Virus record (IMG/VR): IMGVR_UViG_3300027704_000150
Location: 1-24,749 of that record
Length of the DNA stretch: 24,749 nt
Direction: 5' to 3' (one strand)
Origin: a virus
Part shown: piece after piece, positions 6,506 to 24,749 of the stretch
Position numbering within the stretch: the first letter of the stretch is position 1
Layout: the number at the start of each line of letters is the position of its first letter
Translations under genes and position numbers: made by a program
The notes under the pieces: model-generated
The model's input: the letters and a program-made list of their open reading frames with translations, nothing else
Database searches by the model: none
Told to the model about the DNA's origin: nothing

Positions 6506-8098
6506 TTATCCAGTACTGGGGGGCCCATTTGGCGTCCCGCCGTTAGGAGGGCCTTTAGTACCGTCAATATTATTGTCACCCATGTCCGGATCTGCAAGTG
6601 CTGCATCCATTTCAGTGTTGGCGTCGTTCTCTTTTTTCATCTGTTTATCTAAGTTATCGATATCTTCGTCTGTTTGCTTGAGCACATTACGTTTAACCCA
6701 ATCTTCAGAAAAGTATTTTCCAACATATACATCAAGTGCATTCACAGTATTAATACGTTCATTGAGGATTTCATTGTCTTTCAACTCAGAGAAGTAGTTG
6801 TCTGTCTTGAAATCATATTTAATGTTGCGTTTAATATCATTAAACTCTTCTGGCGTCATGTGTCCTTTTAACACCAATTGTTTCTCTAATGCGGAATCAA
6901 ATAATATTGAAAATCGCATTCTAATTCTTTGAATAAATTTTTGAAATTTTACTTCATCACGATTAATTTCAGTAGCTCGTCCTAATGTCATTCCTGTTTC
7001 AGGTTCTAATCTTGATATAGGTACGTTTAATGACTTGTACATCTTCTTTTGGAAGTACAGTACATCGTCCATCTCTCCAAGATTTTGACCACCCGGCAGT
7101 GTAGTGATTTCAGTACCACGACCACCTTCCCGTCTTGGCAACCAATAGTCCTCAAGCATTGTCATAAACTTACGATCGTCTCTGACTTCGCCAGTAGCAG
7201 CATCGTAAATTAAACGATTTTTATGCTTGGCCATCATATCTCTAAGATATTGCTCTGCTTTCATCTTGGGTAGATTACCAACATCAATATAGAAGATACG
7301 CCTTTCAGGAGCTCTAGCTATTCGGTAGATGACCGTTGCGTCTTCTAAAATTCGAAGTTGGTTTAAGGGCTTAATAGCTTTATGAAGATGAGATAGAACA
7401 AGTCTATTGTCTTCACTCATAACACCAGATGTTGCATGAAGTATAGCATCCTTAGCGATCTTAACTCCTTGATCTGCTCCAGCTGCTGTCGGACTCCCAC
7501 CTGGATAACCAACAAACCCTTTATCATTATAAATGAAAAATTCACTAATAGTACGTTCTACTTGGACTTGTGTTCCAGGTATACGTTCTTTTTTATTTTC
7601 TCTTACTTTTTTAATTTTTCGAGGATCGATATATCTTAATTCTTTGATACCTTCTTCTACCGCATCCGGATCAATGATCACATGATAGAACATTCTACCA
7701 TCGATATACCAATGACGAGCAACCTCATAGCCCTTTTCATTAAACTCTAAAAGGTCTAGGACAAACTCAAATTCTTTTTGAATGATTTTTTTAGTTCCAG
7801 CAGACATACCTTTAACTAAATCAAGGTTGATATCTACTAGTCTGTTGTGCTCATCATAAACAATAAACTCATGAATGATATCGTCGATGGCCATGTCGCA
7901 CTCAGGCATCATAGACATTCGACGATATCTAGTTACAAGTTCTGCTTCTGTTCGGGTAGCACCTTCAAGATCAACATAGGTGCCATACATGCCTCCAGTA
8001 GTGACATTATGTGCGCCATCATCTAGTTGTAAGGGCGCAAAGGAAGCAGGTCGCTCCCCTTGCGCTCTTTTTATTTCAAATCCGAATAATGTTGCCAT
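6506..8098 (-). CDS. 20: Portal vertex protein gp20
   Basis: The 530-residue product matches T4 gp20 in length (524) and in hallmark blocks. These include RYRRMSMMPECDMAIDDIIH near residue 60, IDGRMFYHVIIDP, ELRYIDPRKIKKVRE, ATVIYRIARAPERRIFYIDV, LPKMKAEQYLRDMM and TTLPGGQNLGEMDDVLYFQK. The latter region continues into SLNVPISRLEPETG, the region used for cyanophage g20 diversity surveys. The portal dodecamer sits at one capsid vertex, nucleates head assembly, and is the channel and motor dock for DNA. The C-terminal 50 residues are low-complexity Asn/Gly/Pro. Confidence 0.97.
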   Translation of the reverse strand: MATLFGFEIKRAQGERPASFAPLQLDDGAHNVTTGGMYGTYVDLEGATRTEAELVTRYRRMSMMPECDMAIDDIIHEFIVYDEHNRLVDINLDLVKGMSAGTKKIIQKEFEFVLDLLEFNEKGYEVARHWYIDGRMFYHVIIDPDAVEEGIKELRYIDPRKIKKVRENKKERIPGTQVQVERTISEFFIYNDKGFVGYPGGSPTAAGADQGVKIAKDAILHATSGVMSEDNRLVLSHLHKAIKPLNQLRILEDATVIYRIARAPERRIFYIDVGNLPKMKAEQYLRDMMAKHKNRLIYDAATGEVRDDRKFMTMLEDYWLPRREGGRGTEITTLPGGQNLGEMDDVLYFQKKMYKSLNVPISRLEPETGMTLGRATEINRDEVKFQKFIQRIRMRFSILFDSALEKQLVLKGHMTPEEFNDIKRNIKYDFKTDNYFSELKDNEILNERINTVNALDVYVGKYFSEDWVKRNVLKQTDEDIDNLDKQMKKENDANTEMDAALADPDMGDNNIDGTKGPPNGGTPNGPPSTG

Positions 8099-8129
8099 TC
8101 GTTAACTTCACTTTCCTAATAATATAACT

Positions 8130-8681
8130 TTAGTTGCCGCCGGCGTTACCGGTAATACCTCCATCTACTTCCCACCAATCGTATTGAAAGGTAACAGTAA
8201 ACTCTTCAATCGTATCTGTAGTGTTCCAATCAAGATCAATAGTGCTGACCTCAGTTGGCCACATACCATTGAATGTGTATTGGCGAATTGGAATACCGGT
8301 TTTACTATACTGTACTACTTGTGCGTTTTCCTTGTACAGAGAAGGCGCAGCTGCACCAAACTTCCGTACGTTACCTAGATGCGTATTAATATTCTGCATC
8401 CACTCTTCCATAGCATTTCTGATCAAGAAGTCTTCGTCATTGGTTATTGTTATTGTCCATTCAGCAAATGTTCTATCACCAGCTATCTTAATCTTTCTAC
8501 CAAAGTAACCTACTTCAATAGTTCCGACCGTCGACGCTGGAATTTGCGCCGCTCTTGCCATAAAAGGAATTTTGGCATCACCACCAGAGTTAGCCGGATT
8601 ATTCATTATGACCTGGAATAGAGCAGGGCGTGCACCACCAAGTGCTAGCTGTGATCTAATTTCATTGATATTAAAGGCCAT
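8130..8681 (-). CDS. 19: Tail tube protein gp19
   Basis: The 183-residue product is close in size to T4 gp19 (163) and sits in the canonical place between sheath and portal. It begins MAFNINEIRSQLALGGARPA followed by LFQVIMNNP, and contains PFMARAAQIPASTVGTIEVG, FGRKIKIAGDRTFAEWTITI and FLIRNAMEEWMQNIN, as in marine T4-like tube proteins. It forms stacked hexamers as the inner tube of the contractile tail. The ATG has AGGAG 6 bases upstream. A variant late promoter octamer lies 24 bases upstream. Confidence 0.95.
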   Translation of the reverse strand: MAFNINEIRSQLALGGARPALFQVIMNNPANSGGDAKIPFMARAAQIPASTVGTIEVGYFGRKIKIAGDRTFAEWTITITNDEDFLIRNAMEEWMQNINTHLGNVRKFGAAAPSLYKENAQVVQYSKTGIPIRQYTFNGMWPTEVSTIDLDWNTTDTIEEFTVTFQYDWWEVDGGITGNAGGN

Positions 8682-8704
8682 CGAGCTCTCCTATTCGTTG
8701 TATC

Positions 8705-8712
8705 TATTTAGC
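8705..8712 (-). promoter_or_regulatory. Variant late promoter (GCTAAATA) upstream of gp19
   Basis: The minus strand reads GCTAAATA between the sheath stop and the tube ATG, 24 bases from the start. It differs from TATAAATA at two positions. Its spacing to the gene equals that of the exact promoters here, and the same octamer recurs on the plus strand at 17415-17422. No direct proof of activity. Confidence 0.42.
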
Positions 8713-10914
8713 TTAGAATTGTCCGACGACTTCAGAGAACTCAACGTTCGTTCTGACGGCGATGAAGTTCAACTGAATAAAGTTAATCGACCGAGCTGGC
8801 TTGATGTATATGTCACCAATAAACTCGTTTCTGTCAATTACTTCACCAGTATTATTCGTATCGTCACAAACAACCTTGAAGTCAAAAATACCTCTTCGAC
8901 CCTGAACATCCCGAAGGAAAGGCTCGACCATATTTCTGAATTGTGCTCTCGTGAATTCATCGTTGAATTCAAACAATGTATATTTTGCCGCTCTACTAAT
9001 TGCCTTCTCAAGAACAATGAACAATCTACGAACATTAATTCTATCAAACGCACTCGGCTTAGCAAGCAAAGTTTTGTCACCAAATAGGATAGTTCCTTGA
9101 CCAGGGAAAGTAACAACTGGGTTGATACCCTTCTTGTACAAAATGTCCCGATCAGCCTTATCTGGGTTGTAGGGGTTCTTAATGACGTTCTTCAAGATAC
9201 CTCTGTTAAATCCAGCAGGAGAGAACCATGGGTCTCGAAGATTATCTGTTCTGACAATCAGACCAGCAACATCACCGTTGTATGGAACATACCGATATAC
9301 GTCGTTGTATCTATCATACTGATATTTGTATCCACCGTCCATCACACCATACGAGGAGGATGTCAGAGCGTTTCTCATGTCGACTGTGTTAGCAGACTCA
9401 TCACCAGCGTTGTTGATCACATCAGCCTTTTCGGGAGAGATGATAACAATACAATCTTTTCTTGGCTCAGCAATATTATCAATCAGATAGTTTCCAAGTT
9501 GATGACCGTGTGTGCCACCTCTTGCTTTACCTTGCAAGATCAAAGAGACATCAATCTCTTCAGCATTCTTGAACTTATCATAAGCTGTCGTCAGCTGACC
9601 AATTGCAACGTTGCTTTCACCAGAATCGCTCTCGCCAACTAAGACGTGAGTAGTTACGTTTGCAGTACCACCGTCTCGGCCAACTGTAAATGATCTCGAG
9701 AATGGAACCGTGTTAGTTACAGCAGTGTTGACCATGTTGACAGCTGTGTTAACATAATCTGCTGTCGAGTTTTGAGTCTCACCAGCTACGCGTACTTTCT
9801 TGCCACCGTTATATACCCACGCGCTTTGAGCATGGAGCACATCGTAGTAGTAGATCGATTCACCAGACTCGTTCTTGGCGTCTGTAGCGCGAGACAGGTT
9901 TGGATACGATTCAAGGATACTTCCTCTTACACCGGAAATTGCTCCATCTTCATCTTGAACAACAATATGAAGCTCATCTGAAGCATCTGAATTGTTTGCA
10001 ACATTGTTACAGAACAATGAAGTACCAGGAGCTTGATCGAAGTTACCAGCAAACTGCCACTTACGTGTTACTGAACTAGCAACTAGGTTAGCAGTGAACG
10101 CAGCACTCAGTGTATACTTGGACTCGAACGAAATATTCGCTGTACCTGTAAAAACAGTACCGCCGACTCCATCAAGAGCTCCGGAAGTCGATGTTGATCC
10201 GATTGTCTGGACACGTTTTTCGGTAAACCCAATTGAGTTATTACCTAGCTTAATAATATCACCAACAGCAAAGCTGGAAGCAACATTAGCAACAGTGTTT
10301 TGTGCTAGCAGATATTCAGCAACAGTTACGTTAGACGTCTCTGTGAAACTGCCTTTACTATCCGTTGCAGTAATGACAAACTCTGTATTACCTACAGCGA
10401 TGTTAACATCAACAGATGAAATACCAGATACGTTATTAGAGACTGTGCTCTCAAACGCACCAGAGCTATCACAAACAGAAATCTTCAACGAGTTACCAAG
10501 TGATCCAGGGTAGCGAGCCAAGAAGCTAGCATCGGCTGGAACAGTGACATCGTTGTCATAGTGTTCTTGGTTTTTGATTTTTAGAGTATGCGACGTGTTA
10601 GCTGAGCCGACGGCGGTTGCTGTATTCTGCAGCACCGTAGCGTTAAGAGCAGTTGTCGCAGTAGCTCGGCTAACATATAGCTTGTTGCCATATGCTAGAA
10701 AATTGGCTGCGGTGAAAAATGTTTCGAAATTAGTACCGTCGGGCTTCCCATAAGTATTGGCAAGTTCTTCTTCTGAAGAAACTAGGTTCGCCAGCTCGAC
10801 AGGTCCCCATCTAAAGTGACCTGCAAATGCGCCCTCAGTCGTAGAGACTGCAGGAACAATTGTGGTTAAGTCAATTTCCGTTACGTTTACACCAGGACTG
10901 ACTTGAAATCCCAT
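8713..10914 (-). CDS. 18: Contractile tail sheath protein gp18
   Basis: The 733-residue product is longer than T4 gp18 (659) but has the expected ends. The start is MGFQVSPGVNVTEIDLTTIV, with EGAFAGHFRWGPVE following. The conserved C-terminal domain contains RDPWFSPAGFNRG, YKKGINPVVTFPGQG, NVRRLFIVLEKAISRAAKYT, FLRDVQGRRGIFDFKVVCDD and FIGDIYIKPARSINFIQLNF. The middle (about 110-450) is Thr/Ser/Asn/Val-rich and variable, where sheath proteins carry surface-exposed domains and where the extra length lies. The protein forms the contracting sheath around gp19. A late promoter lies 53 bases upstream of the ATG. Confidence 0.97.
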   Translation of the reverse strand: MGFQVSPGVNVTEIDLTTIVPAVSTTEGAFAGHFRWGPVELANLVSSEEELANTYGKPDGTNFETFFTAANFLAYGNKLYVSRATATTALNATVLQNTATAVGSANTSHTLKIKNQEHYDNDVTVPADASFLARYPGSLGNSLKISVCDSSGAFESTVSNNVSGISSVDVNIAVGNTEFVITATDSKGSFTETSNVTVAEYLLAQNTVANVASSFAVGDIIKLGNNSIGFTEKRVQTIGSTSTSGALDGVGGTVFTGTANISFESKYTLSAAFTANLVASSVTRKWQFAGNFDQAPGTSLFCNNVANNSDASDELHIVVQDEDGAISGVRGSILESYPNLSRATDAKNESGESIYYYDVLHAQSAWVYNGGKKVRVAGETQNSTADYVNTAVNMVNTAVTNTVPFSRSFTVGRDGGTANVTTHVLVGESDSGESNVAIGQLTTAYDKFKNAEEIDVSLILQGKARGGTHGHQLGNYLIDNIAEPRKDCIVIISPEKADVINNAGDESANTVDMRNALTSSSYGVMDGGYKYQYDRYNDVYRYVPYNGDVAGLIVRTDNLRDPWFSPAGFNRGILKNVIKNPYNPDKADRDILYKKGINPVVTFPGQGTILFGDKTLLAKPSAFDRINVRRLFIVLEKAISRAAKYTLFEFNDEFTRAQFRNMVEPFLRDVQGRRGIFDFKVVCDDTNNTGEVIDRNEFIGDIYIKPARSINFIQLNFIAVRTNVEFSEVVGQF

Positions 10915-13566: not shown

Positions 13567-14428
13567 TGAAGAACTCCTCAAAGTTTGTTATATATCCATA
13601 ATTATCGTTTGCTTGAATGAGTGAAGTATTAACAGTCAAAGAAGCATTTGTTGTTGGAGAACCATTAGCTAATAGTCCAGGTGTAATTGTTGTTCGTTGA
13701 TGGAGGACATTAGATGATGTGCTAATGCCGGCAATTACTGTATTGGCTGGATGTGAGTTAGCAATTGGGGTCGTTGTATCAACATAGAAATTTAAATTAG
13801 CAGTTTTGATAACCCCAGATGTTCTGACTGGGCCGAACAGTTGACCCTTTACAGTAAATGTAAGAGTGTGTATTAAAGCGCGCCTCTGTTGAAAATCTGC
13901 TTCATACGTATCTTGTATTGAGACAGCTTCAAGCACAATTGGTATGTCGACAGTCCAGTTCATCGATGATAATAGTGTTGCTGTAACAGTAAACTCTGGT
14001 GTGAAAAACGGCATGATCTGTTCAAGGATTTTTGTAGAATCTTCTGCATATTTTGTAAATACGTTCAACTCAAAAGTAATATCATATGGAACAGGGTTGT
14101 ACATAGTTTTGTAATTAGATTTGTTGTTTGTGTCATGTACAGCAACGTTTCTACGTACGGTGTTTAATTTTCTTTCTGTTGCATACGACATACCAATCAT
14201 TTCAAAAGACATTCGCGGAAGGGTTATTGCAACTTCTCTATCCAAATCTGGATCTTGTTCTAGTCTTGCAATAGTTTTGTCGCGAGGACCATATGTTAAT
14301 GGTACTTTTATATCTTGTACTCTGTTTCCTTCGCCATCTGTTCTATAGATCATGATCTCATTGAACAATGTACCAAATATGATTACATATTTACGTAAAG
14401 TGGAGTGGTAAAAATTATGGCCAAACAT
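13538..14428 (-). CDS. 15: Tail sheath stabiliser / tail terminator gp15
   Basis: The 296-residue product matches T4 gp15 (272) from its first residues: MFGHNFYHSTLRKYVIIFGT then LFNEIMIYR, corresponding to the T4 pattern MFG-YNS-RRY-G-LF-I-I-R. It continues with VPLTYGPRDK, ITLPRMSFEMIGMSYATERK, MYNPVPYDITFELNVFTKYA and EQIMPFFTPEF. Gp15 caps the finished sheath and tube and joins the tail to the neck. The Asn/Thr/Ser-rich C-terminal 80 residues are variable. The start overlaps the gp14 stop (ATGA-type). Confidence 0.94.
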   Translation of the reverse strand: MFGHNFYHSTLRKYVIIFGTLFNEIMIYRTDGEGNRVQDIKVPLTYGPRDKTIARLEQDPDLDREVAITLPRMSFEMIGMSYATERKLNTVRRNVAVHDTNNKSNYKTMYNPVPYDITFELNVFTKYAEDSTKILEQIMPFFTPEFTVTATLLSSMNWTVDIPIVLEAVSIQDTYEADFQQRRALIHTLTFTVKGQLFGPVRTSGVIKTANLNFYVDTTTPIANSHPANTVIAGISTSSNVLHQRTTITPGLLANGSPTTNASLTVNTSLIQANDNYGYITNFEEFFSGDANTSSG

Positions 14429-15204
14429 CAGAAACGTCCGCCTTCACTAAATGGATCGGTATCGCTAAAGTCAATTACTGTATCTGCTTCACCCTCAATG
14501 AACACATTTTCACTATCTGTAATTGTATCAAAGTCTCGAGATGGTGTTGAGCTAGCGTCTTCAGAATCTTCTTCTTCAGTAACAAGTCTGTAACCATCTT
14601 CTGTGAACACCGGTGTAATGCCATCTTCACCTAACAACTGAACTTCTTCAAGAACATCAAGAGAATGTTTAGATTGAACCTCATCAATTACGTCTATACC
14701 AGTATTAAATCTTTCGTTTGAATACTCAAACAACTCTACTTTGATATCATAGAATTGTATTGCGCCCATTTGATAAAATACAGGCTCATGCTCAGTGAAC
14801 ACAATTGAATATAGCTTTTCAGTCAAGGGGAAGAAAATTAAATCACCTTCCCTTGGTCTTGAGATATTTTGTGTACCTTCAATTTCAGTCTCAAAAGACC
14901 GCCTTGCAACCGACAATGTCATAGAATCTCTAATTTCTAATCCGAATTTGGACAAGAAGTCACCTTCTCCTTCGAACCCATCAACATTTCTTATGTACAT
15001 TGCAACATCAGTTACATTATCAAACACAGCCAGATCCTCTTCAGTATATAACTGATCATATCCCTCTGAAGTATACTTCTTACACATATATCCAACATCT
15101 ATACCATACATCGATATAGATTCTATCACCAAATCAGCGATTAAGCCTTGCTCACCTGCATGAGCAAACTTATTAAAATATGTGCTTGTTGTTGCTTGTG
15201 CCAT
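14428..15204 (-). CDS. 14: Neck / head completion protein gp14
   Basis: The 258-residue product matches T4 gp14 (256) in length and place. It contains QGLIADLVIESISMYGIDVG near residues 19-38, YTEEDLAVFDN, then FGLEIRDSMTLSVARRSFE, RPREGDLIFFPLTEKLYSIV and VFYQMGAIQFYDIKVELFEY, blocks I associate with this family. Gp14 together with gp13 forms the neck that seals the DNA-filled head and receives the tail. The C-terminal 60 residues are very acidic. It is separated from gp13 by 2 bases and overlaps gp15. Confidence 0.93.
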   Translation of the reverse strand: MAQATTSTYFNKFAHAGEQGLIADLVIESISMYGIDVGYMCKKYTSEGYDQLYTEEDLAVFDNVTDVAMYIRNVDGFEGEGDFLSKFGLEIRDSMTLSVARRSFETEIEGTQNISRPREGDLIFFPLTEKLYSIVFTEHEPVFYQMGAIQFYDIKVELFEYSNERFNTGIDVIDEVQSKHSLDVLEEVQLLGEDGITPVFTEDGYRLVTEEEDSEDASSTPSRDFDTITDSENVFIEGEADTVIDFSDTDPFSEGGRF

Positions 15205-15206
15205 TA

Positions 15207-15950
15207 CTACCCTGTCATATCATGTACTGGAAGAGAATAAGCGCTTATCATCTCTTGCTCTAATTTATCTTTTTCCATTTGAGCCTGAGATAATATATCA
15301 GCTCCGTTAAATTGAACTCCTCCTGGTAGCTGCATTCCTGTAAATTTACTCAGGTTCGAACCCCATTGATATTTAATTAAACACGTAGCATACTCAGTTA
15401 ACCACCTATCGCTCCATAAATCTGTGTACGTATCTCCATCAAGCTTTTCATAAACGTGTGCAACTATATATTCACCCGCATTCCTCTTATCCCAATCCAT
15501 ATCAATATGAAGTCTGTTGACATGTCTATTATACCTCAACGGTTGCTTACCGACCAAAATTTCCTCGATCATTCGAATATTCATAAAATTCATATAGAAA
15601 GGAACGAGATCATATCTCGACAGATCATATAAATCATTTAAAGCAATTTGATATCGGATATTGAAAAGATTGTTTGTACTTGTAGTATCCCCAATGTCAA
15701 AGATATCAACAATACCAATAATATTACTATTAGTAATCGTGATATACTTATTAGTTTTGTCGGTTTCTGTTACAACGTGTTTCAAAAAAGTCTTTTGTGT
15801 ACCATCAAAATGATAGTCTTGGTAATAAGCAAGTGCTTGATCAACACGATCGTCTATCTGATCGTCGTCGACATTAATCTCTATAACTGGTTTACCAAGT
15901 CTTCTGAGACACAATTCTTTGAATGTTGCTTTCGTAGTAGGTACTGCCAT
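15207..15950 (-). CDS. 13: Neck protein gp13
   Basis: The 247-residue product starts MAVPTTKATFKELCLRRLGK and continues with PVIEINVDDDQIDDRVDQAL then YYQDYHFDGT, a highly characteristic start of marine T4-type gp13. Downstream are IVDIFDIG, LPFYMNF-like segments, RLHIDMDWDKRNAGEYIVAH and WLTEYATCLIKYQWGSNLSK. It is shorter than T4 gp13 (309). It binds the portal after packaging as part of the neck. The ATG has a GGGGA about 7 bases upstream and lies 3 bases after the preceding stop. Confidence 0.93.
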   Translation of the reverse strand: MAVPTTKATFKELCLRRLGKPVIEINVDDDQIDDRVDQALAYYQDYHFDGTQKTFLKHVVTETDKTNKYITITNSNIIGIVDIFDIGDTTSTNNLFNIRYQIALNDLYDLSRYDLVPFYMNFMNIRMIEEILVGKQPLRYNRHVNRLHIDMDWDKRNAGEYIVAHVYEKLDGDTYTDLWSDRWLTEYATCLIKYQWGSNLSKFTGMQLPGGVQFNGADILSQAQMEKDKLEQEMISAYSLPVHDMTG

Positions 15951-16852: not shown

Positions 16853-17064
16853 TAAAAGGAACCACCATCCATACTATCTGCTGATAACACGTATTTATTA
16901 AGAGCAGAATTATACACTAAAATTGTACCGTTTGCCTTATTTGATTCGACCACGTCCTCACATGCTTCTAGTCTATTTGCTGTTCCTGATACAGGATTAC
17001 CATATATAGATAATGTGTTGAGTGTATTGGAAAGTATTTGTGTTCCAGATCTGAAAGTACTCAT
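16852..17064 (-). CDS. Small virion-appendage-like protein
   Basis: The 70-residue product (MSTFRSGTQILSNTLNTLSI) ends with NGTILVYNSALNKYVLSAD and DGGSF. The G-x-IL-x-YN-x-x-x-x-KYV pattern is one I associate with marine phage fibre and virion proteins. It overlaps the upstream gene as ATGA and the downstream gene as TAATG. Probable structural accessory protein; no specific function can be assigned. Confidence 0.65.
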   Translation of the reverse strand: MSTFRSGTQILSNTLNTLSIYGNPVSGTANRLEACEDVVESNKANGTILVYNSALNKYVLSADSMDGGSF

Positions 17065-17396
17065 TGAGTCACCCTTGGTGTTACTGTTACGATTCCCTCT
17101 ACAGCCCTCAATTTGGTATTAGCAGATGTGTTATTTAAACTTAAATCATACACATATCTACCGTCTGTTATTCCCGCTGTGTTAGCATAATTCAAAACCA
17201 TCGTTACTGTTCCATTAGTACCACCTGTTGTACAAGTGAACGTAGCAGTAGCAGAAGATGAAGAAAAGTGTTTTCTTATCTGAGAATTTGCTGTATAATT
17301 AGTCAAGTCGACTCGAGCACCAGCTGCATCCGTGATATCAATATCAGTAGAAAAACTAGTACCTTGCTCAATCACAATGTTTGCTTTAACTGCCAT
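17061..17396 (-). CDS. Beta-sandwich structural protein (baseplate/appendage N-terminal-domain-like)
   Basis: The 111-residue product resembles the small beta-sandwich domain found at the N-terminus of BppU-type baseplate proteins and in many marine phage structural proteins. It begins MAVKANIVIEQGTSFSTDID, has LTNYTANSQIRKHFSSSSAT, then a TNGTVTMVLNYANTAGI segment and DGRYVYDLSLNNT, ending in VEGIVTVTPRVTQ. It is the first gene of the four-gene appendage group, 27 bases downstream of a TATAAATA late promoter. Fold assignment is from pattern recall. Confidence 0.68.
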   Translation of the reverse strand: MAVKANIVIEQGTSFSTDIDITDAAGARVDLTNYTANSQIRKHFSSSSATATFTCTTGGTNGTVTMVLNYANTAGITDGRYVYDLSLNNTSANTKLRAVEGIVTVTPRVTQ

Positions 17397-17422: not shown

Positions 17423-17430
17423 TATTTATA
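17423..17430 (-). promoter_or_regulatory. T4-type late promoter for the appendage-neck operon
   Basis: The minus strand reads TATAAATA, 27 bases upstream of the ATG at 17396. It heads the long run of overlapping or nearly abutting genes from the appendage proteins through gp13, gp14 and gp15 to the terminase genes. Confidence 0.82.
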
Positions 17431-17453: not shown

Positions 17454-18017
17454 ATGAGTAAAATTAGTGAATTGCGGCAACATGCTCGTAATAGAAAATT
17501 ACCTCCTTACATGGAGATTGGAAGAATCACACCGGAATTGGTTGTTCATAATCTATTTATCTATGATGATTTATCGAGAGATCCAAAAAACTTATCTGGA
17601 ATGAAGACAGCTGAACACCGGCATGCTAATGCTGTAGCTGGAGTCAGCACCGGTAAAGACGTTTATGATTTAGGAAAATTTTATAATCAAATCCATACAA
17701 ATGAAATTGAACTTAGTGCGCCTAATTTTAATTTTGTGAATACTAGATTTGCTATGTTAGAACCAGGACACCATATAGATTTTCATATGGATCCTCCTAG
17801 CATATATAACATTATATGTCCTCTGACAGATCCTGTTATATTAGAAATTAGAGAAGATTTAAACGCTTATCCAGTAATTATGCCCGGTGAAATTTGTTTT
17901 ATTAATCCGAGTTACTCACATGCTTCTCGTCACGAGTCGAAGGAAACAAGAGTAGCTATATTAGCCAATTTTGATTATAATGAGGAAGTGTATGACCACC
18001 TTACCAGGCTACTATGA
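17454..18017 (+). CDS. Asp/Asn beta-hydroxylase-like 2OG-Fe(II) oxygenase
   Basis: The 187-residue product has a double-stranded beta-helix signature. R98-F-A-M-L-E-P-G is followed by HHIDFHMDPP with H111-x-D113, then VIMPGEICFINPSYSHASRH with H156 as the distal iron ligand, and R166 in ETRVAILANF as a likely 2OG-binding arginine. The order R, PG, H-x-D, distal H, R resembles the aspartyl/asparaginyl hydroxylase family. The ATG at 17454 is chosen because upstream in-frame codons run into the opposite-strand gene and its promoter. AGGCGG upstream is a weak ribosome site. The end overlaps the radical SAM gene by 26 bases, suggesting the two act together. Substrate unknown. Confidence 0.75.
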   Translation: MSKISELRQHARNRKLPPYMEIGRITPELVVHNLFIYDDLSRDPKNLSGMKTAEHRHANAVAGVSTGKDVYDLGKFYNQIHTNEIELSAPNFNFVNTRFAMLEPGHHIDFHMDPPSIYNIICPLTDPVILEIREDLNAYPVIMPGEICFINPSYSHASRHESKETRVAILANFDYNEEVYDHLTRLL

Positions 18018-18921
18018 AGTAGAGCCAGAAGATTGTAAATTTACAGACGTTACGGCAGACGTTACTCATCAGTGTAATATGAGCTGCTCGAATTGTTACA
18101 TCCCCAATAGAGATGTACCAGACATGGATATTGATAAGATGCTGGATTGCATTAGTAGATTTCCTCAAAGAACAATGATACGAATAATGGGCGCTGAGCC
18201 TACTATGAGAAATGACCTAGTAGACATAATTAAACGCATTAGAGCAACAGGAAATAGATGTACCCTGTTGACTAATGGGCTAAAGTTGGGTAGTATGAGA
18301 TATACTCAGAGTCTTAGAGATGCTAAACTATCACACGTATATCTAAGCCTCAATGGGGTTGATAATGATGATTGGTATGAAGAAATAGATGAGCTGAGGT
18401 GTGCTAAGCTTAAAGTGAAAGCCTTAGTAAATATTAAAGCCGCCAGGTTTATTATCGATACCGGTACAATATTATGTAAGGGTATCAACGATGATGCGCC
18501 TTCAAGGCTGATACATCTATTTAAAGAAAAAGAAATAGAACACGCAATGATACGATTTAAGAATGTTGGACAGCATGGAAGGTATTTACTAGAAAGTGTT
18601 GATAATTGGTCAATGGATGATATGATACAGATTTGTGCAGATCACTTTGGCATCACAGTAGATTATATTAATTCGTGGAGAGAGAAGCCAATATATGGTG
18701 ATCATGTTGAACCAGATACATTTATGTTTCCTATAAATGAGAACTCAGAAGGTAAAATGCTACACAGAAGTGGGCTATGGGTCAAACTTGCTGATTGGGA
18801 TAGCCATGGAGATACTCGGCCGTATCCATTCATGGAACAAACGCGTCGAGGTAGAATAACAGAAGACTTTAAAGTTGCTCCTCTTCCTGCTCATATAGTA
18901 GCGAATGAGGGTGGATATTAA
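17992..18921 (+). CDS. Radical SAM enzyme
   Basis: The 309-residue product carries the radical SAM cluster motif CNMSCSNCY (C28, C32, C35; CxxxCxxC) near the N-terminus. IRIMGAEPTMRNDLVDIIKR matches the GGEP-type SAM-binding motif, then TLLTNGLKLG and VYLSLNGVDNDDW follow, as in the partial TIM barrel. No long Cys-rich C-terminal SPASM domain is visible; the C-terminal region (about 230-309) is unassigned. Such enzymes generate a 5'-deoxyadenosyl radical for C-H activation, methylation, epimerisation or peptide modification. The ATG at 17992 is preferred because GAGGAAG precedes it closely, over in-frame ATGs just upstream. The stop overlaps the next ATG by one base. Confidence 0.9.
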   Translation: MTTLPGYYEVEPEDCKFTDVTADVTHQCNMSCSNCYIPNRDVPDMDIDKMLDCISRFPQRTMIRIMGAEPTMRNDLVDIIKRIRATGNRCTLLTNGLKLGSMRYTQSLRDAKLSHVYLSLNGVDNDDWYEEIDELRCAKLKVKALVNIKAARFIIDTGTILCKGINDDAPSRLIHLFKEKEIEHAMIRFKNVGQHGRYLLESVDNWSMDDMIQICADHFGITVDYINSWREKPIYGDHVEPDTFMFPINENSEGKMLHRSGLWVKLADWDSHGDTRPYPFMEQTRRGRITEDFKVAPLPAHIVANEGGY

Positions 18922-19352
18922 TGGAGATACCTACCTTCTTTCAAAAAGGTGATAACGAATATTTAAATCCTATTAGATTGTTATACAACTCGAAGAAGTA
19001 TAAATTTTATCATGTAATTACATACACCGATTATTATCAAGCATATACAAGTCCCAATGAGTTCAAAGCATCTGGTAGGCTACCATTTGAATTTAACAGA
19101 ACAATGAGACAATTTGCTATTGAAAAGTCGTTTATGAAACTGAAGAACCACGGTGAAGGAACCTATCTTACCTTTTCTACCATAGAAGATCATCACACAA
19201 TTAAAGATTGGATAGCAGCTAAAGATTGGATGCCATTAATATTAATGTATGATAAAGACATAGTAGATTTAGATGCAAACAAACACGTGGAGGTAGAAAG
19301 TATAGACAAATACCTATCCATAACACGGGAGTGGATTGATGACAGCCATTGA
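18921..19352 (+). CDS. Unrecognised protein in the modification operon
   Basis: The 143-residue product (MEIPTFFQKGDNEYLNPIRL) is not recognised. It is soluble, rich in aromatic and charged residues, with an apparent alpha/beta pattern (KYKFYHVITYTDYYQAYTSP, later STIEDHHTIKDWIAAKDWMP, ending SITREWIDDSH). No signal peptide, membrane segment or Cys cluster is seen. It begins inside the radical SAM stop codon and overlaps the first glycosyltransferase by 14 bases. That places it as a coupled component between the radical SAM enzyme and the glycosyltransferases; it may be a partner or substrate-binding protein. Confidence 0.75.
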   Translation: MEIPTFFQKGDNEYLNPIRLLYNSKKYKFYHVITYTDYYQAYTSPNEFKASGRLPFEFNRTMRQFAIEKSFMKLKNHGEGTYLTFSTIEDHHTIKDWIAAKDWMPLILMYDKDIVDLDANKHVEVESIDKYLSITREWIDDSH

Positions 19353-20136
19353 CATTTGGGTTATTAAAACCGTACATATAGAATGCCCATATCAAACAGA
19401 ATGGGATCCTAGTGAGTATTACACCGACATCCACGTCATGGACTTAAAACATCAAATTGATGAATACTTTACACAACCATATACTTTCAATTTAGTAACA
19501 AATCAAACTACAATTGCAATGCCTGGTATTACAATTCATGACTGTAATGATTGGAATTTATGGGGTTGGTGGAACAAAATAGGATTGTTCAGTAAGGAGC
19601 TATCTGGCCCTGGAATCAACATTTACATTGACTTAGATACGATTATTCAAAAAGACTTTACCGATCTTCCGGCATTTGCTCCTAAAGATAAAATCAGTAT
19701 GTTGTATTGTTATTGGAAACCTATCGATTGGGAATCACAAGCATTTAAAGTATCTAATTTTAATCCAGATTTTGAATTTGCCACATTAATCAATTCGTCC
19801 ATCATGGTGTGGCACGGTGATCAGTATGATTATATTTGGCAACAGCTTATGGAAGATCCAGAGACGTTCACGTTTAGGTTTAGAGGTAATGATGAATACA
19901 TGAACCACTTTCACAAAGATGTAATTAACTGTCTTCCTAGAGGATGGGCATATTCTTATTTCTTTGGTGCAGAAGAAGGTTCAGAATTTTTTCCCAAAGA
20001 CAAGGATCAATTTATAAAGAGACGGGACTTTCATTTTAGATTATTAAATGGTCAAGGAAAAAAGTGGAGAGATTATGATGATGGTCAACCTTTGGAAAAC
20101 TCATCAAAGGATGTTGTTAGAAAGATGAAAGGTTGA
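19339..20136 (+). CDS. GT-A-type glycosyltransferase 1
   Basis: The 265-residue product has a GT-A-like layout. The key segment is WNLWGWWNKIGLFSKEL followed by NIYIDLDTIIQKDF, with D98-L-D100 as the metal- and sugar-nucleotide-binding DxD. NSSIMVWHGD then supplies the mid-domain strand, and GWAYSYFFGAEEG a C-terminal one. No membrane segment is seen, so it should be cytosolic. The ATG at 19339 has GGAG about 9 bases upstream; a TTG immediately before it is a weaker alternative. It overlaps the next gene by 4 bases. Donor and acceptor are unknown. The family resembles GT8/GT32-like enzymes, but the exact family cannot be fixed by eye. Confidence 0.75.
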   Translation: MTAIDIWVIKTVHIECPYQTEWDPSEYYTDIHVMDLKHQIDEYFTQPYTFNLVTNQTTIAMPGITIHDCNDWNLWGWWNKIGLFSKELSGPGINIYIDLDTIIQKDFTDLPAFAPKDKISMLYCYWKPIDWESQAFKVSNFNPDFEFATLINSSIMVWHGDQYDYIWQQLMEDPETFTFRFRGNDEYMNHFHKDVINCLPRGWAYSYFFGAEEGSEFFPKDKDQFIKRRDFHFRLLNGQGKKWRDYDDGQPLENSSKDVVRKMKG

Positions 20137-20900
20137 ATACTATTAATTTAATGACTATGAAATGGGGTACGAAGTTCAAAGCTGAATATCCTAATTTAAT
20201 TCATAGAATGGCTAAGAAATATATGCCATGTGAATTCAACTCTTATTGTATGACTGATGATCCAACGGGATTAGATAAAGATATTATAGCAGTAGAATGC
20301 ACTGAGCAATGGTTATGGAATGATATCTTGGAACAAGATCAATGGTACTTCTGGGATGGTATTAAGATGTCGTTATTTGCTCCTAAACTGTGTGGTATAG
20401 AAGGTAAGATTTTATTTACAGACCTAGATAATTTATTTATCAGCCCGATGGATAGGATCATCAACACTCCAACGCCAGCCATGATTGGTTGTGATTGGAT
20501 GCCACCGTGGCATGTTGGGATGCATGGTGGTAATTATTTTCTAACAATGTTGTTTAATGCGAGTTTGATATACGTGGATAATACAGATCCAATTACAAAC
20601 GAAATCTGGAATCATTTCAATAAGAATTATAAGAAAATTAAACAATCGTTGTATAGTGCTGATGCTTATTTATGGCGTAAATGGAGAGATCAGATACACA
20701 CATATCCAAAAGGAACAGTATATTCGTTTAATAGGGGTGCTGCTTATCCAGACAACTATACTATAGCTGGAAAAGCTGCTAAGTATAAGTATAGACCTGA
20801 TCATTCCGTTTGTGTGTTTATGGAAGACCATGAACCAGATCCACTGGATATACATGATGGGTGGGTTGCAAGAGAATGGAAACAATACCTTGAAAATTGA
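20133..20900 (+). CDS. GT-A-type glycosyltransferase 2
   Basis: The 255-residue product starts with a beta strand MNTINLMTMKWGTKFKAEYP, typical of the first Rossmann-like strand of these enzymes. It has WYFWDGIKMSLFAPKL followed by GKILFTDLDNLFISPMD, with D97-L-D99 as the DxD. LFNASLIYVD and the C-terminal GTVYSFNRGAAYPD match equivalent parts of the third glycosyltransferase. The TTG at 20133 (overlapping the preceding stop) is preferred to the internal ATG at 20151 because it keeps the full first strand. It is a paralogue of its neighbours by layout, with W-W-N-K replaced by a looser F-W-D-G-I-K. Confidence 0.74.
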   Translation: MNTINLMTMKWGTKFKAEYPNLIHRMAKKYMPCEFNSYCMTDDPTGLDKDIIAVECTEQWLWNDILEQDQWYFWDGIKMSLFAPKLCGIEGKILFTDLDNLFISPMDRIINTPTPAMIGCDWMPPWHVGMHGGNYFLTMLFNASLIYVDNTDPITNEIWNHFNKNYKKIKQSLYSADAYLWRKWRDQIHTYPKGTVYSFNRGAAYPDNYTIAGKAAKYKYRPDHSVCVFMEDHEPDPLDIHDGWVAREWKQYLEN

Positions 20901-21540
20901 TATAGTGACTCTTAAAGTAGGCCTGGGTTATAAATCTGAGTATGTTAACCAGTTATTTAAGCAAGCTGAAGAGACTAATGACTTAGGTAATTTTACGTGT
21001 TACACAGATAATGCTCGTGGAATTAATCCTAATATATCAATTGAAGAATTCAATCCTATGTACAAAGAGAGAATGTGGTGGAACAAGATTGCATTCTTTG
21101 AACCAGGATTGTTTAAGAATGATACAATTTATCTTGATCTAGATTGCGTTATACAAGGCGATCTATCTCCATTTGTTAATACCGGTCACGTACTTCATAC
21201 ATCTTGGTTTAGTGAGAATGTTAATCATTATATATTTGGATGTAGTGTAAATTCTTCAGTGATGTTTATTAAAGACGAAAATTTTGTAGAAGTATATAAC
21301 GATTTTATTAAACACAGAGATAAAGTTTATAAATCATTTTATGGATTAGATTCTTGGATGTATCGAAGACACATCAACAAAATAAAATACTTTCCTGAAG
21401 GATTGGTATATTCGTTTAGATATGGAGCTAAGTATCCTCACGATGTAGAAGGCCAAAAGTTAAGAAATAATTTTAGTGTTTGCTGCTTTGATGATATTGA
21501 AGATAAAGAATCTAGGTTGAAGGAAATTTGGAATGTATGA
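20890..21540 (+). CDS. GT-A-type glycosyltransferase 3
   Basis: The 216-residue product (MKIDIVTLKVGLGYKSEYVN) repeats the layout of the two preceding genes: RMWWNKIAFFEPGLF followed by TIYLDLDCVIQGDLSPF (D83-L-D85), then VNSSVMFIKDE, a LDSWMYRRHIN segment and EGLVYSFRYGAKYPHD. It is the shortest of the three. The in-frame TTG at 20890 is the probable start; an open frame extends upstream inside the previous gene but shows no homologous sequence. It overlaps its upstream neighbour by 11 bases and the methyltransferase-like gene by 8. Function is transfer of a sugar from an activated donor, substrate unknown. Confidence 0.74.
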   Translation: MKIDIVTLKVGLGYKSEYVNQLFKQAEETNDLGNFTCYTDNARGINPNISIEEFNPMYKERMWWNKIAFFEPGLFKNDTIYLDLDCVIQGDLSPFVNTGHVLHTSWFSENVNHYIFGCSVNSSVMFIKDENFVEVYNDFIKHRDKVYKSFYGLDSWMYRRHINKIKYFPEGLVYSFRYGAKYPHDVEGQKLRNNFSVCCFDDIEDKESRLKEIWNV

Positions 21541-22186
21541 TCCTGTATTAGATGAAACATATCGTTTGTTTGTAAAGGGTATGGGATACCTACAAAAGAA
21601 CCATATCTATAAATTTAAAGATTATAGTGAGTGTGTTTTTGATACTCAAATAAAATCTAAGTGGTGGTTAGCAGAAACATTATCTAACACTGAATTTAGA
21701 GACAGAGAAGTAAAGCGTGTAAGCATTCTAGCTAGCTGGTATGGTATTGTTATTGTGCCTATGTTGTTTAAACATTTTGGTCGGATTCCAATTGACCTAT
21801 ATGATGTTGATGAGTATACTATAGATATAGCTAAACACATATACAAAGATGAGTTTAGTGATATGGTAAATGTACATTGTAAAGATGTTGTGTTTGATGA
21901 CCTAGATTTAAAAGGTAATGTTATTATCAATTGCTCGTGTGAACATATGTTTGACATGTCTCATATCGTTCAACAATACCCAGACGCATTGTATGTGCTA
22001 CAGAGTAATAATAATCGAAACGTCAAATGGCTTCATATTAATTGCGTTGACAACTTGGGCGAACTAGCTAAACAAGCAGACATTAGAAACGTAATATATG
22101 GTGAAAGCAAAGAAGTGTATGGCCAAAAAAGAATGATGCTTATTGGTACACATATGAAGGATGATAAAAATGCAGTTGGGGATTGA
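21533..22186 (+). CDS. Class I SAM-dependent methyltransferase-like protein
   Basis: The 217-residue product has a Rossmann-type order. VSILASWYGIVIVPMLF (residues 63-79) sits in the motif I place, IDLYDVDEYTIDIAKHIY (87-104) ends its second strand with acidic residues, VNVHCKDVVFDD follows, and GNVIINCSCEHMFDM (128-142) sits in the motif IV place. The ASWYG version of the glycine-rich loop resembles GGWYG loops I recall from other marine phage methyltransferase-like proteins. Substrate is unknown; a sugar or protein is as likely as DNA, and no DNA-methylase DPPY-type motif is seen. It starts inside the last glycosyltransferase and overlaps the next gene by 17 bases. Confidence 0.66.
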   Translation: MYDPVLDETYRLFVKGMGYLQKNHIYKFKDYSECVFDTQIKSKWWLAETLSNTEFRDREVKRVSILASWYGIVIVPMLFKHFGRIPIDLYDVDEYTIDIAKHIYKDEFSDMVNVHCKDVVFDDLDLKGNVIINCSCEHMFDMSHIVQQYPDALYVLQSNNNRNVKWLHINCVDNLGELAKQADIRNVIYGESKEVYGQKRMMLIGTHMKDDKNAVGD

Positions 22187-22559
22187 TAGCCAAATATATG
22201 GTTTTGTAATGTTGCTGTATAGTCAGCAACTATTCAATCAACTATTTAATGCTGAGGAAAATGCTGAATGGGAGAAAATACAACCCATTGTAGGTGAGTT
22301 TCATGAAGCATTAAATGAGCAAAATAGATGGGATGCATATCAAAGGTGTATAAAATACAATGGCCTGGACAACATTGTTTTCACTGGTGTTAATGATTCA
22401 TATTACATGATGTACTGTATTAGCAATTACAGAGTACCTGGTATTGATATTGACCCAAAGGTTACGTCCTTTCATGAGAAAATATTGTATTATGTTTTTG
22501 TTAACATAGCAAAGAAGGCTCATAAGATATATAATAAATTTGGATCAAGACTTATCTAA
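22170..22559 (+). CDS. Unrecognised last gene of the plus-strand operon
   Basis: The 129-residue product (MQLGIDSQIYGFVMLLYSQQ) is not recognised. It looks helical and soluble, with a central charged region (NAEENAEWEKIQPIVGEFHE), a YMMYCISNYRVPG segment and a basic C-terminus (AKKAHKIYNKFGSRLI). The ATG at 22170 is preferred over the one at 22161 because AAGGA lies 8 bases before it. It overlaps the methyltransferase-like gene by 17 bases and is followed by a 106-base convergent gap, so it ends the operon. Confidence 0.68.
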   Translation: MQLGIDSQIYGFVMLLYSQQLFNQLFNAEENAEWEKIQPIVGEFHEALNEQNRWDAYQRCIKYNGLDNIVFTGVNDSYYMMYCISNYRVPGIDIDPKVTSFHEKILYYVFVNIAKKAHKIYNKFGSRLI

Positions 22560-22665: not shown

Positions 22666-23424
22666 TTATTTAATAAATGATGCATCGTATGGAGCAAGAG
22701 GCCAAACCAAATCTGTACCAGCAATTTCCTCTACAGCATTTTTCCACACATTTTCATCAAATATAACATAACCTAATGTTATTCTAGGCTCATTAGAGTA
22801 TGCTGTATGCCAAACTATCTTCTCGTGCTCTTCTTTCTTTCCATAATAACCAACCTTACACGACCAACCTGGTTGATCTTTAATTGTTACTACGTTCTCC
22901 TCATTCTCTCCGATATTAGGACGAGGTGAATTAGAACCAGTAGGGTTGATGTGTCTCCAATATCCATCCCCAGTTGGATTATATGTAAACAAAATATTGA
23001 AACTTGGAACATTCCAATTTGTATGCCAAGAGATATAACCTTGAGGAGGGTAAAACATTTTCAGTGCACAAAATCTATACCCAAGATAGTTACCTAAGGT
23101 ATCATCAAGCCACTGAGACTTGTCCATTAAAGGCCGGCCATCCTCTTCTGATATAGTACCAGATTTAATCCATGTCGCTACTTGGTTGAAGTCATAACCA
23201 TAACTATCAGGTGGAAATCCATCATGCTCCATATGTTTGAGAGACATTAGGCACTCCACAGAGCTTGCGTATTCAGCACGGTTTTCATTAAAGAATTTTG
23301 CGCCACGAGCCTTATATTTCTTATCCTTACCAAAGTTCTCGGCTAAGTCGAGGCTCCAGATGAAATCTTTCCATTCATCTAAATACGTCAAAATTTCCGA
23401 TTGTATTTGATATACTGGGGTCAT
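22666..23424 (-). CDS. Double-stranded beta-helix (2OG oxygenase-like) protein with H-x-N
   Basis: The 252-residue product resembles 2OG-Fe(II) oxygenases of marine T4-like phages. FCALKMFYPPQGYISWHTNW holds H134-T-N136 at the place of the usual H-x-D. SFNILFTYNPTGDGYWRHIN follows, then GWSCKVGYYG and EKIVWHTAYSNEPRITLGYV with H206 as distal histidine and R214 as possible 2OG ligand. The Asp-to-Asn change may alter or abolish iron binding, or the family may use it naturally. The ATG at 23422-23424 has AAGGA 8 bases upstream and lies inside the glycosyltransferase gene (50-base overlap). Substrate unknown. Confidence 0.65.
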   Translation of the reverse strand: MTPVYQIQSEILTYLDEWKDFIWSLDLAENFGKDKKYKARGAKFFNENRAEYASSVECLMSLKHMEHDGFPPDSYGYDFNQVATWIKSGTISEEDGRPLMDKSQWLDDTLGNYLGYRFCALKMFYPPQGYISWHTNWNVPSFNILFTYNPTGDGYWRHINPTGSNSPRPNIGENEENVVTIKDQPGWSCKVGYYGKKEEHEKIVWHTAYSNEPRITLGYVIFDENVWKNAVEEIAGTDLVWPLAPYDASFIK

Positions 23425-24259
23425 CTATTAATCCTTCATCCTGAATTCCGCCTGGAATGGTGTAATGGTGCATAACTTTTTGGTGTTTTTCACTTAACTC
23501 ATAATCACGATAGCCATTAACAAAGTTCCACTTTGGGTGAATTTCTTTAATTCTTACATTATAATTTTTGTAGTAGTTAGTTCTCCAAAAAGCATACGTA
23601 TCCCAAAACCATAGTGATTTAGGATGATTGAATTTCTTTTCCCAAACTTTCTTGCTTGTAATTTGTTCTTTGTAGTTTTCATACCATGCGTGTAACATCT
23701 CTAGTGTATGGGGCTTATTATTATATATAAACATTCCACAATGCCATTTCATACGGTAAACACCATTGTTAGCTGTAGGATCCCAAGAATGAATTGCATA
23801 TAAAGGTTTACCGTTTTTGGGATCACCACCCTCCCATATTAATTTTTTGTCTTCTTCTTCATAATGGGTAAGCTCTTTGTCGTTTGTAAAGTAAACAACT
23901 TTAGCATTATATGCTCTATTGATAGTCATAACCATATCATTATCATCTTGAAGTTCATCAAAAATGTATTTAATATTATCATGCTCACAATATGTGTCTG
24001 CATCCATATAACACGTCTTGTCATATGTTGTTTGATTGAGTGCCCACAGCTTTGCTCTGCAATGAACTGGAACATTGGTTATAATTTTATCAAAGATCTT
24101 ACTATCACGATTTTGATTAACCCAAGGCTCATGAGTAAATAGTGTACACTTCGCTTCAGGCCAGTAGTCTTTAACCGATTCAGCTGACATAACAGCTGCG
24201 TCATAATATGGTTTTGTTAAAGATCCGACATAAAGAAAACCATTATTCTGACTTGTCAT
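23375..24259 (-). CDS. GT-A-type glycosyltransferase 4
   Basis: The 294-residue product has the GT-A arrangement. FLYVGSLTKPYYDAAVMSAE is followed by CTLFTHEPW; LWALNQTTYDKTCYMDADTY then carries D86-A-D88 as the DxD motif. GVYRMKWHCGMFIYNN is the mid-domain strand, LWFWDTYAFWRTNYYKNYNV follows, and VMHHYTIPGG near the C-terminus resembles the terminal His-containing metal-binding segment of glycogenin/GT8-type enzymes. No membrane segment is seen. It overlaps the flanking genes by 17 and 50 bases. It differs clearly from the three plus-strand glycosyltransferases, which have D-L-D and shorter products. Donor and acceptor unknown. Confidence 0.75.
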   Translation of the reverse strand: MTSQNNGFLYVGSLTKPYYDAAVMSAESVKDYWPEAKCTLFTHEPWVNQNRDSKIFDKIITNVPVHCRAKLWALNQTTYDKTCYMDADTYCEHDNIKYIFDELQDDNDMVMTINRAYNAKVVYFTNDKELTHYEEEDKKLIWEGGDPKNGKPLYAIHSWDPTANNGVYRMKWHCGMFIYNNKPHTLEMLHAWYENYKEQITSKKVWEKKFNHPKSLWFWDTYAFWRTNYYKNYNVRIKEIHPKWNFVNGYRDYELSEKHQKVMHHYTIPGGIQDEGLIDDPSISNTIGNFDVFR

Positions 24260-24716: not shown

Positions 24717-24749
24717 TCTAGTCTCCTCACGTTTATCTTCATCAATGGG

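Follow-up and report, generated by a model that had tools for sequence, protein, structure and literature searches.

An eight-gene operon of a marine T4-like phage lies in the host-recognition island and combines a conserved glycosyltransferase block with a separately mobile oxygenase-radical SAM cassette

The stretch of DNA analyzed here (the window) is the 24.7 kb IMG/VR record IMGVR_UViG_3300027704_000150, which ends at position 24749. It is a fragment of a marine T4-like phage, with a capsid protein that shares 64-69% identity with those of Stenotrophomonas phage DLP_6, Methylophilales phage Melnitz and Pelagibacter phage Mosig. The late structural genes of the window are encoded on the minus strand. 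A 349-aa protein encoded on the same strand (258-1307) adjoins them; its C-terminus matches phrog_20220 (unknown) and its N-terminus weakly matches phrog_274. The eight overlapping genes of the operon occupy 17454-22559 on the plus strand, between tf1 and the ox9/GTd pair, and the neighbors on either side are on the minus strand. The tf1 gene (17061..17396, minus strand) borders the operon and encodes an L-shaped tail fibre assembly-like protein (phrog_3304, E 1.1e-21). Together with tf1, the neck genes (14428-15950) adjoin the operon; the neck adaptor (15207-15950, E 2.5e-41) is on its near side. These matches bear out the original prediction that the operon runs opposite to the late structural block and lies beside tail genes. 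Beyond the operon, ox9 (22666..23424) and GTd (23375..24259), both on the minus strand, overlap each other. The ox9 product is oxygenase-like by inspection only and has no Pfam match. GTd is a putative fourth glycosyltransferase with a DAD motif, and its match to Glycos_transf_2 (E 2.9e-4) is below the cut-off. The two genes are co-conserved and are kept as a pair beside genes 3-8 in every lineage seen; in Kyanoviridae phage C48C1, their homologues adjoin a tail-fibre assembly gene.

The overlaps of 26, 1, 14, 4, 11, 8 and 17 bases that had been proposed fit starts at 17992 (gene 2, ATG), 18921 (gene 3), 19339 (gene 4), 20133 (gene 5, TTG), 20890 (gene 6, TTG), 21533 (gene 7) and 22170 (gene 8, ATG), respectively. 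For genes 2, 6 and 8, the true start may lie a few codons away, and gene 2 has a possible earlier ATG at 17980. As described below, family matches, motifs and a predicted fold also agree with the identities that had been suggested: a 2-oxoglutarate (2OG) oxygenase, a radical SAM enzyme, three related glycosyltransferases and a methyltransferase-like protein.

Gene 1 (ox1, 17454..18017) encodes a 187-aa 2OG/Fe(II) oxygenase of the Asp/Asn beta-hydroxylase family (PF05118, E 8.7e-6). Its score is 26.1 bits (cut-off, 22.6), and all 17 aligned diverse relatives match PF05118. H111, D113, H156 and R166, which form the HxD...H...R motif, are invariant in the alignment of these 17 relatives. Thus, by family match and alignment, the assignment of ox1 to the PF05118 oxygenases with an intact catalytic motif is confirmed. 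The 2OG/Fe(II) motif is common to ox1 and the family; ox1 is distinguished as a small stand-alone phage form, which is 18-28% identical to the more distant aligned members.

Gene 2 (17992..18921) encodes a radical SAM enzyme with a MoaA/Tes-like core (PF04055, E 1.4e-12; 48.5 bits, cut-off 29.5) and the CxxxCxxC motif. C32, C36 and C39 are invariant in 86 of 86 homologues, and C141 is present in 84 of 88. The closest curated models are TrsS (84 bits, cut-off 490), MoaA (72 bits, cut-off 284) and Tes (69 bits, cut-off 450); each score is far below the cut-off. The best sequence match in the PDB is the tetraether lipid synthase Tes (E 9.2e-16). The CxxxCxxC core is common to gene 2 and these enzymes. 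In contrast to them, gene 2 has its own C-terminal region ending RRGR...NEGGY, and the window protein does not possess auxiliary-cluster cysteines.

Genes 4 (GTa, 19339..20136), 5 (GTb, 20133..20900) and 6 (GTc, 20890..21540) encode related GT8-like glycosyltransferases, which cluster together and in which a DxD motif is invariant in the alignment. GTa (E 8.1e-11) and GTc (E 3.9e-14) match phrog_1962, a GT-A glycosyltransferase family, and GTb joins them by alignment. The cut-off of PF01501 (glycosyltransferase family 8) was not reached: GTa scored 14.8 bits against 24.3, and GTb and GTc gave no match. When the subfamily was searched as a profile, no Pfam or PDB match was found. From the alignment and the phrog_1962 matches, the three are confirmed as related DxD glycosyltransferases. 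Gene 7 (MT7, 21533..22186) has a profile match to 3dtn (E 2.7e-4), and its AF2 model (pLDDT 87.4) gives Z 14-15 to class I methyltransferases; with RedM, Z is 15.1 over 182 aligned residues (rmsd 3.2), as for a Rossmann methyltransferase fold. Thus, MT7 is confirmed by predicted fold as a class I SAM-dependent methyltransferase, and its family has at least 540 viral relatives.

Two small proteins complete this part of the operon. Gene 3 (unk3, 18921..19352, 143 aa) is conserved with the glycosyltransferase block, and gene 8 (unk8, 22170..22559) encodes about 130 aa; neither gave an accepted match in family searches. The AF2 model of unk3 is modest (pLDDT 77.6) and has no significant fold match. 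We considered whether unk3 is a GNAT that replaces the acetyltransferase-like neighbor found in other genomes. This idea was rejected because profile comparison gave no support and the weak model had no significant fold match. Relatives of unk3 occur at the operon site only, and all relatives of unk8 with a readable context are at the host-recognition island.

The eight open reading frames are conserved coding genes, because pN/pS against the nearest contig (L002) is low (0.13-0.39 for all eight) while synonymous sites are near saturation. GTb is the best conserved of the three glycosyltransferases (0.13) and GTc the fastest evolving of the eight genes (0.39); genes 6 and 1 change fastest. Furthermore, a search for the gene set in relatives found all eight genes, identically ordered, in at least 11 other IMG/VR contigs. 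Because of these pN/pS values and this recurrence, the arrangement is not a chance one, and the operon is confirmed as real and under purifying selection. Relatives carry host-like phosphate-uptake genes between genes 7 and 8, in a slot that the window leaves empty; these genes differ from one relative to another (L007:12304-13263, L003:12242-12727, L004:11791-12270 and L011:12310-13299) and encode a Pit-type permease (by inspection), half of a Na/Pi cotransporter or a PstS-like binding protein. In L132 and L133, a large glycosyltransferase-looking open reading frame is present in this slot. Relatives also carry a PP-loop ATP pyrophosphatase-like gene between the nuclease and small terminase genes (L007:2062-3108), which the window does not have.

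Scans that used genes 3 and 8 as queries revealed sister contigs. At least 13 contigs have a complete set of genes 3-8 at the same site but do not have genes 1 and 2. The block has the same orientation in L113, L125-L130 and L145; in one subclade (L132, L133, L135, L137, where gene 3 is partial, and L139), it keeps its place but is inverted with respect to the tail genes. L113 groups with the cassette carriers in the trees of GTb and the neck gene but not in that of GTd, and the remaining contigs without the cassette group in a clade of their own. Because of its placement in the first two trees, L113 probably lost genes 1 and 2 and kept genes 3-8 intact. One or two changes on the trees explain the inversion, and no inverted repeats of 10 bases or more were found at the block borders in L127, L132, L135 and L145; therefore, an invertible switch was rejected. 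Thus, the operon is a composite of a conserved block (genes 3-8) and a separately mobile cassette (genes 1 and 2), not one indivisible pathway. The original prediction of a single co-selected pathway is only partly supported. Genes 3-8 are conserved as a block, but this block occurs without genes 1 and 2, which are paired in many other phages that do not have these glycosyltransferases.

Profile and contig scans for the radical SAM family gave 88 loci, which form 46 clusters at 90% identity. The oxygenase gene is within 1.5 kb of the radical SAM gene in 25 of the 46 clusters. An acetyltransferase or putative acetyltransferase-like gene is nearby in 23 clusters, a desaturase in 10 and an acyl carrier protein in seven. 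In contrast, glycosyltransferases of the operon are near in only six, all from the clade of the window. In L014-L016, the cassette is beside recombination and CobS/CobT-like genes, with no tail gene near. The phage acetyltransferase-like family (c7) was rejected as a proven GNAT, and it is termed GNAT-like only because it has neither a Pfam match nor a profile link to the bacterial GNAT. A cellular origin of the radical SAM enzyme was also considered and rejected: the gene is rare, being present in two of 385 alphaproteobacterial genomes, one of which is the seed genome.

One copy of the T4-type late promoter motif, TATAAATA (17423..17430, minus strand), faces the tail genes and points away from the operon. 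The window contains five copies, each on the minus strand and some 16-52 bases ahead of a late gene; this count alone is not significant, since 13 of 100 shuffles reach five. The copy facing tf1 is conserved in 14 of 14 divergent intergenic regions examined. In these 14 regions, no T4-type late promoter motif faces the operon, except for a palindromic case in L028. In the inverted contigs, TATAAATA sits between the block and tf1. This distribution of motifs suggests that the operon does not form a late transcription unit.

The surroundings of the operon have a known counterpart. Zaragoza-Solas et al. 2020 (PMC7029224) described the host recognition cluster (HRC) of pelagimyophages: a hypervariable region next to the neck genes and bordered on the other side by VrlC, with tail fibres, numerous GT8 enzymes and also radical SAM cassettes. 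An Asp/Asn hydroxylase is given there as core to the group, and the glycosyltransferases are read as modifying the O-chain against superinfection. Likewise, the operon is in an island of a T4-like phage that abuts neck genes and has tail fibres, and its content (GT8-like glycosyltransferases and a radical SAM enzyme) is variable, as the presence or absence of the cassette and the inversion of the block show. Thus, its setting is this known island, the VrlC side of which is outside the window. The original prediction that no described phage system has such a composition must therefore be narrowed. The island type, with its glycosyltransferases and radical SAM cassettes, is known, but the six-gene block, its order and the oxygenase-radical SAM pairing are not described for the HRC in the passages of PMC7029224 examined here, and the exact gene set and the pair were not found in the searchable literature. 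Genes for radical SAM enzymes, glycosyltransferases and methyltransferases are jointly enriched in viral contigs from the Tasman Sea (PMC7150976).

The cultured Pelagibacter phage Mosig EXVC030M (MT647606) has an island in the same place, next to its neck genes and tail-fibre genes. A tblastn search of INPHARED with ox1, unk3, GTb, GTc and MT7 gave no match; in contrast, a profile search recovered MT7, glycosyltransferase and ox1 homologues in Mosig. In its comparable opposite-strand block, MoaA-like radical SAM genes are accompanied by homologues of MT7 (E 2.6e-41) and of the glycosyltransferases (E 8e-11), and its PF05118 gene (Asp/Arg hydroxylase) adjoins an N-acetyltransferase and a tail-fibre gene. 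The Mosig radical SAM members are only distantly similar to gene 2 (E 1.5e-8). Unlike the operon, the Mosig block has aminotransferase and carbamoyltransferase genes, and no match to unk3 or unk8 was found in the Mosig stretch searched.

For the order of the chemistry, its substrate, its target and its timing, we infer the following scheme, which we favor tentatively. Genes 3-8 would modify a glycan of the host envelope, and genes 1 and 2 would be an added radical and oxygenation cassette. The three GT8-like glycosyltransferases most likely add sugars sequentially, MT7 may cap or decorate a sugar, and unk3 and unk8 may assist. The mobile cassette, placed ahead of the glycan module, is probably co-translated with it; its most likely contribution is a radical reaction plus a hydroxylation, either of a building block or of the chain once finished. 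The most likely target of the product is not the virion but the envelope glycan of the infected host, which would be altered before the late phase; the change could, for example, keep competing phages from adsorbing. This scheme draws on the eight-gene order, the occurrence of genes 3-8 without genes 1 and 2, the pairing within the cassette, the intact motifs, the predicted methyltransferase fold, the late promoter motif that faces only tail genes, the published HRC (PMC7029224) and the opposite-strand block of Mosig. Several points count against it. The neighbors of the cassette elsewhere (acyl carrier protein, desaturase and acetyltransferase-like genes) point away from sugars, and, as a profile, the glycosyltransferase subfamily matches nothing in Pfam or the PDB. 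Moreover, the absence of a late promoter motif bears on timing only as evidence from sequence motifs.

Linkage to the tail-fibre assembly gene is consistent with modification of the host envelope, but it fits decoration of the virion equally. In that case, the oxygenase would hydroxylate residues of a virion protein, such as a tail-fibre protein, which the radical SAM enzyme would modify further, and the glycosyltransferases and methyltransferase would build a methylated glycan on it. The block and ox9-GTd adjoin the tail-fibre assembly gene wherever the context is readable, and in phage C48C1 the ox9-GTd pair likewise adjoins such a gene. The PF05118 family includes hydroxylases acting on protein side chains, and hydroxylation followed by glycosylation is known chemistry. 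Nevertheless, we consider this explanation unlikely. Because no late promoter motif faces the operon, which is directed away from the late genes, it seemingly is not a late unit, and this is mild evidence against virion decoration; the cassette is also found with no tail gene near, as in L014-L016.

Another possibility, of which we are doubtful, is that two unrelated cargo modules share one transcript. The oxygenase and radical SAM enzyme would then act in a small-molecule or acyl pathway, separate from the glycan of genes 3-8. The rarity of these glycosyltransferases among the neighbors of the radical SAM gene, in comparison with acetyltransferase-like, acyl carrier protein and desaturase genes, agrees with this idea, as do the probable loss of the cassette in L113 and the acceptance of phosphate-uptake genes by the slot between genes 7 and 8. 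However, the genes overlap, and their order and spacing are conserved across the clade of the window despite near-saturated synonymous sites, which suggests more than an accidental neighborhood. Finally, synthesis of a viperin-like antiviral-type nucleotide or a RiPP by gene 2 is very improbable, since the PADLOC match is partial and weak (pVip, E 3.4e-12), the NCBIfam viperin score (34.8 bits) is far under the cut-off of 180 and lower than the MoaA and TrsS scores, no precursor-peptide gene was recognized among the listed open reading frames of at least 40 aa, and the window protein has no C-terminal SPASM-type cysteine set.

If the host envelope is the target, the operon is a candidate for a superinfection-exclusion system of the open ocean that uses unusual chemistry. 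The genomes of marine T4-like phages contain numerous 2OG oxygenase and radical SAM genes that lack an assigned role, and the separation of a mobile cassette from a fixed glycan block gives two testable units, for which natural relatives with and without the cassette are a ready comparison. The cassette is the most notable part. It is possible that the pair, which has an acetyltransferase-like or acyl-carrier partner elsewhere, is an undescribed cassette exchanged among marine phages and carried by a few alphaproteobacteria. It might perform a new small-molecule, lipid or sugar modification and, in the lineage of the window, feed a phage-encoded methylated glycan. Synthesis of ornithine lipids or N-acyl amino acids combines OlsB with a PF05118 hydroxylase. 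The combination of a GNAT, an acyl carrier protein and a PF05118 enzyme around the cassette elsewhere resembles this system and is a possible lead; in contrast, the window does not contain the GNAT and acyl carrier partners. The radical SAM gene of L067, L077 and similar loci (about 7001-9200) precedes genes for an acyl carrier protein and for a 340-aa family (c14) with no Pfam match. This arrangement, one instance of which is in a 342 kb phage contig, resembles an acyl or small-molecule pathway. In the alphaproteobacterial contigs L093 (4877-13903) and L098 (5809-14845), the order is GNAT, PF05118 oxygenase and radical SAM enzyme, and the genes that follow encode a predicted secreted protein and then a giant protein that is RTX/calcium-repeat-like.
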